Below are positions 18 to 30,259 of a DNA stretch of 34,202 bases, piece by piece. Position numbers and translations under genes: made by a program. The notes under the pieces were generated by a model. The model saw nothing but the letters and a program-made list of their open reading frames with translations, had not been told where the DNA came from and did no database searches. The DNA is from an uncultured Lachnospiraceae bacterium (GTDB taxonomy: Bacteria; Bacillota; Clostridia; Lachnospirales; Lachnospiraceae), in NCBI GenBank assembly GCA_947631985.1, contig CANRNK010000011.1, positions 1-34,202 on the forward strand, read 5' to 3'. Each line of letters begins with the position of its first letter. Positions within the stretch are counted from its first letter, which is position 1.

Positions 18-674
18 ATGGATGAAAAAAGGCTTTTGTTTGAACAGTACTTGAATTTGGAAAACAAAGAAAAGGCTGTTTCTTATTGTATAGAGCTTCT
101 GAAAGAAAAGAAGACAGATGTTGTTAGCCTGTATGAAACCATTTTGACCCCTGGTCTGAATCAGCAAGTCTGTGGAGAGGCAGATCAACAAATCTGTATC
201 TGGAAAGAGCACGTCAAAACGGCAATTGTGAGAACAATTGTAGAATGTTCCTACCCGTATGTTATGGAGGAGCGTAAGATGAAGAATGCAATTAATAAAA
301 TTACAGCCGTTATCGTGTGCCCATCCGAAGAATATCATGATTTGGGAGCCAGAATGGTAGCGGATTTTTTTACAATATGTGGGTGTAACACGATTTTTGT
401 TGGAAGCAATACTCCTTTTAACAACTTTTTTAATGCACTGAACCGTCTTAGACCTGAAATTGTTGCAATTAGTGTAAGTGACTATTATAACCTTGTTGCA
501 ACGAAAAAAATGATTGAGAAGATCAGAAGTGTAATGGGTTATTCTGTTACAATTGTGGTGGGTGGAAATGCATTTGAAAATGATCGGAATAAAGCGGTTA
601 GCTTAGGGGCAGATTATTTTACACAATCTTTTCAAGATATTGAAGATATCGTTAAAAAAGAGGTAACAGAGTGA
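18..674 (+). CDS. Stand-alone cobalamin (B12)-binding domain protein (helical cap + Rossmann B12-binding domain)
   Basis: Complete 218-aa ORF; EYHDLG matches (D/E)xHxxG; downstream ISVSDYYNL and VVGGNAF match the S and GG segments of B12-binding folds; N-terminal helical region contains 'WKEH'. Confidence 0.8.
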   Translation: MDEKRLLFEQYLNLENKEKAVSYCIELLKEKKTDVVSLYETILTPGLNQQVCGEADQQICIWKEHVKTAIVRTIVECSYPYVMEERKMKNAINKITAVIVCPSEEYHDLGARMVADFFTICGCNTIFVGSNTPFNNFFNALNRLRPEIVAISVSDYYNLVATKKMIEKIRSVMGYSVTIVVGGNAFENDRNKAVSLGADYFTQSFQDIEDIVKKEVTE

Positions 675-737
675 AATGATTTTACGATTATTTCACATTG
701 GTTTCGATGATACGCGTGCTTAAGCACGCAGATGGGA
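671..737 (+). repeat. Two-hairpin/SD intergenic cassette, copy A
   Basis: GTGAAAT(671-677)/ATTTCAC(690-696) hairpin, then ATTGGTTTCGATGATAC, then GCGTGC-TTAA-GCACGC (714-729), then AGATGGGA (730-737). Shares sequence with 29597-29668. Confidence 0.7.
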
Positions 738-743
738 ATAGTA

Positions 744-19924: not shown

Positions 19925-20273
19925 AAAAAATAAAGTCAGTGAGCAAAAAGAGTACTGCAAGAGGAAACATCACAGAGAGCATATGTTTGGTGAGAATATG
20001 CATGGTTCGCTTTCAGGAATGGGTTTGTGAGATGCAAGGAGAAAGCGTTAAAGTGAGTATCTATAGCCGTAGTCTCTACGTTATAAGAGAAGGATATCGA
20101 AGCTGTTATCTATAGCAGAATCTGTATCTGGATGAGATTAATTTGAATGGTGGCAGGCATTTTCCATAAGGAAGTGTCTTTTTTTGTGTCTTTCTACCAT
20201 TTTCAGATTAAATCAGGGTGGCACCGCGTGTTTGACATGTCCCTGCGAAAGCAGAGATGTGTCTTTTTTTATG
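19925..20273 (+). ncRNA. T-box leader upstream of the trp operon
   Basis: AGGGTGGCACCGCG (20215-20228) T-box core; stem-I motifs AGAGTAC, CAGAGAG, GGTGAGA; terminator GACATGTCCCTGC-GAAA-GCAGAGATGTGTC-TTTTTTT. Candidate UGG specifier at 20020-20022. Confidence 0.92.
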
Positions 20274-29527: not shown

Positions 29528-29596
29528 AAATTGGAACTGTGCACTTTTGTAAGTGATGACAAATGATGACAAAGATAGAAAGTTATGACAGTAAAA

Positions 29597-29668
29597 GTGA
29601 AATGATTTTACAATGATTTCACATTAGTTTTGATTGGTATGCGACCAAAGGTCGCAGATGGGAGCTAA
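29597..29668 (+). repeat. Two-hairpin/SD intergenic cassette, copy B
   Basis: GTGAAAT(29597-29603)/ATTTCAC(29616-29622), ATTAGTTTTGATTGGTA, TGCGACC-AAA-GGTCGCA (29640-29656), AGATGGGAGCTAA. Confidence 0.8.
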
Positions 29669-29732
29669 GGTTGAATAAATAGTATTCAACCCCTTGATTG
29701 GTATGCGACCAAAGGTCGCAGATGGGAGCTAA
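29669..29732 (+). repeat. Two-hairpin/SD intergenic cassette, copy C (tandem, immediately before apt)
   Basis: GGTTGAATA-AATAG-TATTCAACC (29669-29691), then exact 39-bp repeat TTGATTGGTATGCGACCAAAGGTCGCAGATGGGAGCTAA (29694-29732 = 29630-29668). Confidence 0.85.
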
Positions 29733-29734
29733 AA

Positions 29735-30259
29735 ATGAAAAAATTAGAAGAATATGTAAGAAGTATCCCCAATTTTCCAGAAGAAGGGATTTTGTTTCGA
29801 GATGTAACCAGCGTGTTACAGGATGCAGATGGTCTGCATCTGGCAATTGATACAATGCAGAATTTAATTAAGGATATCGAGTTTGATGTGGTCGCAGGAC
29901 CCGAATCAAGAGGATTTATCTTTGGAACTCCAATTGCTTATATCAATCACAAACCATTTGTACTCATCCGCAAACAGGGGAAACTTCCTTGTGAAACAGT
30001 ATCAAAAGAATATGAGCTGGAATATGGGACTGCAACCATTGAAATGCACAAAGATTCAATCAAACCAGGGCAGAAAGTTTTGATTGTGGATGATCTGATT
30101 GCGACTGGTGGAACCACGCAGGCAATGATTCAGCTGATTGAATCACTTGGCGGAACCGTAGTAGGGATTGTTGTTTTGATTGAGCTTGCAGGATTGAAAG
30201 GAAGAGAAAAAATTGCTGATTACAGGGTAGATGCAGCATTGACATACGAAGGAAAATAA
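29735..30259 (+). CDS. apt: Adenine phosphoribosyltransferase
   Basis: YVRSIPNFPEEGILFRDVTSVLQDADG, GPESRGFIFGTPIA, VLIVDDLIATGGTTQA (PRPP motif). Confidence 0.96.
   Translation: MKKLEEYVRSIPNFPEEGILFRDVTSVLQDADGLHLAIDTMQNLIKDIEFDVVAGPESRGFIFGTPIAYINHKPFVLIRKQGKLPCETVSKEYELEYGTATIEMHKDSIKPGQKVLIVDDLIATGGTTQAMIQLIESLGGTVVGIVVLIELAGLKGREKIADYRVDAALTYEGK

Follow-up and report, generated by a model that had tools for sequence, protein, structure and literature searches.

REPINs, among the best comparisons for the element described here, are made up of a pair of inverted REPs and are linked with a RAYT gene (PMC3116915). Our element resembles REPs and REPINs in being short, extragenic and hairpin-forming, in reaching tens to hundreds of copies that are often clustered, and in having hairpins that vary by subfamily. 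It differs in that its two hairpins are unlike each other and form no inverted palindrome pair, in that it lies in a single orientation between a Shine-Dalgarno sequence (SD) and an ATG while carrying an SD itself, and in that a Y1 gene was not detected in most high-copy genomes. With the BOX, RUP and SPRITE repeats of pneumococcus it shares small size, lack of coding content, hairpin formation, dispersal and a Gram-positive host; these repeats are set apart by description, in which we came across neither a specific SD-to-ATG location nor a replacement SD (PMC3049150). The Rfam leader families (T-box and others) are likewise structured 5′ UTR elements, and none reaches threshold on the element. 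Unlike those of a classical MITE derived from a DDE transposon, the two ends of the element (GGTTGAA.. and ..GGGAGCTAA) do not form inverted repeats. The double-hairpin elements and GC clusters of fungal mitochondria are also small double-hairpin mobile DNAs, and how they are mobilised is unclear; they differ in belonging to another domain of life and in lacking an SD function. In kind, the present element belongs with the bacterial short interspersed hairpin repeats, among which its placement between SD and ATG and its replacement SD are new features. Our searches of the open-access literature turned up no account of an element of this sort.

The locus lies in a 34,202-nt stretch of DNA (the window) from an uncultured Lachnospiraceae bacterium (genome G000). 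Between a glyoxalase-like gene and apt (adenine phosphoribosyltransferase; 29735-30259, + strand), two tandem two-hairpin units occupy positions 29597-29732, and each ends in the SD GGGAG. An exact 39-bp block is present twice, at 29630-29668 and 29694-29732, with a start-to-start spacing of 64; both the units and the repeated block had been placed correctly in a preliminary description of this DNA. Unit 1 (+ strand) begins with hairpin 1 at 29597-29622 (GTGAAAT at 29597-29603, ATTTCAC at 29616-29622), which is of a long-interior subfamily, and its 39-bp block comprises the spacer TTGATTGGTAT, hairpin 2 (GCGACC-AAA-GGTCGC, 29641-29655), the SD segment AGATGGGAG (29656-29664) and CTAA. In unit 2 (+ strand), hairpin 1 spans 29669-29691 and is formed by GGTTGAATA (29669-29677), AATAG and TATTCAACC (29683-29691), followed by the second block with an identical hairpin 2 at 29705-29719 and GGGAG at 29724-29728. 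The apt start codon, ATG 29735, stands 2 nt past the end of unit 2 and 6 nt after this SD, which apt would use. A 24-nt core of the element was observed twice in the window and not once in dinucleotide shuffles of it, and a chance origin is excluded. The predicted fold of the tandem lies 6.7 sd below shuffles. The covariance model R2 described below matched unit 1 at 29595-29664 with 57.9 bits and unit 2 at 29669-29728 with 80.7 bits (E 1.7e-17).

The same model identified a third copy in the window at 669-738 (+ strand; 35.1 bits, E 1e-6), with hairpin 1 at 671-696 (GTGAAATGATTTTAC..ATTTCAC), hairpin 2 at 714-729 (GCGTGC-TTAA-GCACGC) and the SD GGGAA at 734-738. Its left flank contains GAGGTAACA, and it ends 5 nt before ATG 744. 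The preliminary description had spoken of three copies, A to C, and its coordinates are good for the two apt units; the third copy lies outside the range that it gave. Its statement that hairpin 1 is unlike between the apt units and yet keeps its pairing holds as well, and the difference is accounted for by a second subfamily, because hairpin 1 of unit 1 is of the type found in the copy at 669-738. This type also occurs in several copies of the congener G004. Unit 1 is a chimera of a subfamily-B hairpin 1 and a subfamily-A block that is the same as in unit 2. At the third copy, the mechanically called ORF starts at 732, inside AGATGGGAA; the in-frame ATG 744 is better suited to the SD, so the annotation may place the start 12 nt too early. 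Elsewhere in the window, a T-box leader (RF00230, 103 bits) is located at 19930-20247 (+ strand).

The units are members of a dispersed family. With up to three mismatches, the 24-nt core occurred 18 times in G000 and 70 times in G004, on both contig strands, and the reversed control pattern gave no match in either genome. A first covariance model (R1) was built from 15 copies and terminates at GGGAG, which leaves the downstream ATG as an independent test. As the preliminary description had envisaged, the genome-wide search with such a model found many further copies; this genome has 29 copies in all, and the congeners G004, G003, G001 and G002 had 73, 5, 1 and 0 copies, respectively. A second model (R2), trained on an alignment of 127 copies, detected the element in 20 of the 397 species sampled from this bacterial family, including 138 copies in the complete 5.4-Mb genome G348 from another genus and 57, 37, 35 and 28 copies in G352, G317, G267 and G091, respectively. 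Diverged versions occur in other genera of this bacterial family, and in an order-level sample of 392 genomes only three genomes matched, all of them from this family. Comparison of the element with plasmid and phage records gave no match. In the Rfam scan, no family reached the gathering score, and the best sub-threshold matches at a permissive E-value were snoRNA noise; the preliminary description had likewise recognised no named riboswitch or repeat family in the units. An IS-derived origin was tested for ends of the Y1/IS200 type.

The element is approximately 60-70 bp long (a typical unit has about 62 bases). In 5′-to-3′ order, its parts are hairpin 1 (GGTTGAA..TTCAACC type), single-stranded CYTTGATTTGTA, the GC-rich hairpin 2 and AGATGGGAGCTAA; outside the stems, sequence is conserved in TTGATTTGTA, which separates the hairpins, and in AGATGGGAG, which follows hairpin 2. 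Each of the 13 stem pairs had double-sided changes among 118 distinct aligned copies, and 94.3% of cells paired compared to 74.2% in shuffled and 30-44% in slid controls, in an alignment that had itself been fitted to the model. For this reason, pairing was retested with arms set by flanking sequence alone, taking the 5 nt after TGAT[AT]N5 and the 5 nt before RGATGGGAR. All five positions paired in 68 of 81 copies, with arms as diverse as GCGAC/GTCGC, GCCCG/CGGGC, GCGTG/CACGC and GCCGC/GCGGC. Both hairpins show strong compensatory change; the preliminary description had named a lack of covariation as grounds against its reading. Two short variants in G111 (L141 and L142) lack hairpin 1; both have CCCCTTGATTTGTAC ahead of hairpin 2 and sit directly after SD-like GGAG/GAGAAG; they suggest that hairpin 1 may be dispensable.

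Among 214 distinct copies, an ORF began 4-12 nt after 159, most often at 5-6 nt, and another unit came next after 35, while 12-17% of random positions in copy-bearing loci had an ORF start. Since these loci had been chosen for holding copies, an unselected 400-kb stretch of G348 was also scanned, and 11 of its 13 matches preceded an ORF start at 5-7 nt. Approximately 9% of copies lie away from ORF starts, as is expected for a mobile element; exceptions include L299, which adjoins hairpin-like sequence, and L286, which lies upstream of the host SD. The downstream genes, named from their translated starts, include apt, pgk, deoC, pyrF, transketolase, cysS, def, nadE and amt; these are housekeeping genes with no pathway in common.

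The left flanks of the copies are enriched for SD-like motifs. Such a motif was found to the left of hairpin 1 in 45 of 105 cases compared to 6-16 per approximately 104 in control windows further upstream. Among the 78 first units whose hairpin 1 is intact, the left flank is rich in G from -8 to -6 and has AA at -2/-1, and most of the motifs end 4-6 nt short of the element; in about 40% of such units no SD can be recognised in this flank, either because it has decayed or because the preference is not absolute. The right end of the element, GGGAGCTAA, has the same layout as the left flank. The left flank ends in AA and the right end in (T)AA, so the target may have been duplicated over 2-3 bp (TAA or AA); subfamily determines the right end, which does not follow the left flank.

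Orthologous upstream regions of sister species were empty, with a copy in 0 of 60 (E 0.1). The cleanest comparison is pgk, in which G004 has ATGGAGGACATAA, a 63-bp insert and AAATG, while G002 has ATGGAGGACATAAAAATG; the insert falls exactly between the host SD and the ATG, and once joined, its flanks match the site in the sister species. At the corresponding position, insertions of 61-72 bp were found before def, cysS, genes for a response regulator, an ammonium transporter and an oxidoreductase-like protein, and at L113, with flanks that are less similar, and several of the empty-site comparisons are only moderately alignable. Upstream of ispG, three congeneric loci (L237 in G001, L239 in G000 and L114 in G004) carry differing hairpins followed by AGATAGGAA or AGATGGGA; the candidates in G000 and G001 score below threshold, and these hairpins are possibly decayed relics of an old common insertion. 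At the transketolase locus L016 (contig C7 of G000), a younger unit is closely preceded by an older, diverged one (GCATGTAAAGTAGCATGCAGATAGGAG), an arrangement that would correspond to insertion at the SD of a pre-existing copy.

Most probably, each unit is a copy of a miniature mobile element whose target is the SD-ATG spacer and which supplies a substitute for the SD that it displaces. The element would insert in one orientation just 3′ of an SD-like sequence and AA (GGAGNNAA^), that is, between the host ribosome-binding site and the start codon, without evident duplication of the target, and its 3′ end would provide a fresh SD and a spacer of suitable length for the downstream gene. Having its own SD and the right spacer, it would leave that gene with a ribosome-binding site, so that insertion could be tolerated even before essential genes. 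The dispersed family, its paired hairpins, the position of insertion, the empty sites of relatives and the SD next to ATG can be read directly from the sequences, from which active transposition and preserved translation are inferred. Of the ideas in the preliminary description, a small selfish repeat supplying a ribosome-binding site is well supported, given the dispersed family, its covariation, its absence from sister species and its own 3′ SD near starts.

The strong RNA covariation and the tight placement at start codons would also suit a cis-regulatory RNA, such as a riboswitch, an RNA thermometer or a protein-binding leader, that opens and closes the SD and whose tandem units sharpen the response. 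In the lowest-energy fold of the apt tandem, both copies of hairpin 2 pair with each other and mask the second SD, which could be an alternative fold. In addition, G-U pairs exceed A-C mismatches in the stems, which weakly favours folding of the sense strand, in a model-based alignment that itself favours G-U. Against this reading, which we consider quite improbable, the centroid fold of single units leaves the SD mostly unpaired (window copy), no Rfam family matches, copy number ranges from 0 to 73 within one genus, and the element was kept in none of the 60 orthologous regions. As the genes have housekeeping roles unrelated to one another and the sites lack conservation, they are unlikely to form a conserved regulon, and the suggestion of translational or processing control as a conserved function is not supported. 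It is possible that a unit affects the translation of individual genes.

Tandem copies are direct, not inverted. In the 36-nt right block, array neighbours were more alike than units at other loci, with identities of 0.99 versus 0.65 in G000, 0.91 versus 0.71 in G004 and 0.78 versus 0.70 in G111, indicating that local duplication or conversion is the main process that generates arrays or keeps them uniform. The tandem copies probably derive largely from local duplication or homogenisation after insertion. It has to be asked whether homologous recombination or gene conversion between copies, together with tandem duplication, could have spread the family with no dedicated transposition. Homogenisation within arrays and the chimeric unit 1 at apt fit such a process, but it cannot seat a first copy at dozens of unrelated, formerly empty sites, and we hold it to be very improbable as the sole means of spread.

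For a targeted mobile element, a trans-acting enzyme would be expected to recognise the hairpins in single-stranded form. One candidate is a Y1 transposase of the RAYT type, which would act on two single-stranded DNA hairpins and make the units a REP/REPIN or an IS200/IS605-derived element. Two terminal hairpins, a short preferred sequence on the 5′ side of the insertion point, the lack of an evident target duplication, extragenic dispersal and subfamilies with differing hairpin sequence all fit this origin. Nevertheless, Y1_Tnp was not detected in seven carriers (G000, G004, G111, G091, G352, G317 and G168, drafts included). Y1 transposase genes are present in G348 (4), G267 (2), G131 (13), G028 (17) and G001 (1), but the TTGATTTGTA-hairpin-AGATGGGAG block does not adjoin those of G348, G131, G267 and G028, and we judge this origin improbable. 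A link to IS200/IS605 read from TTGAT and GTAC beside hairpin 2 was rejected for most hosts, because Y1 genes were not detected in them and the ends of the Y1 elements found elsewhere are unrelated. The search for an autonomous parent covered the Y1 type. A reverse transcriptase domain (RVT_1) is present in G000, G004, G348, G352, G317 and G267 and was not detected in the high-copy draft genomes G111 and G091; as a candidate common factor, a reverse transcriptase was thus not detected in every high-copy genome. Among the Y1 and reverse transcriptase searches of high-copy carriers, which include drafts, no mobilising gene was found.

In a more specific and rather unlikely version of the mobile-element reading, homing is guided by the SD itself; for example, an enzyme or RNA that reads GGAG would insert the element at ribosome-binding sites, in mRNA or in single-stranded DNA. 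If this were true, the family would be the first known mobile element that homes to translation-initiation signals and mends the one that it has broken. Insertion between SD and ATG with a replacement SD would let the repeat sit beside essential genes without killing its host, and it would alter the 5′ UTRs of dozens to more than 100 genes per genome, which would be relevant to annotation, to the evolution of gene expression and to the design of synthetic ribosome-binding sites.
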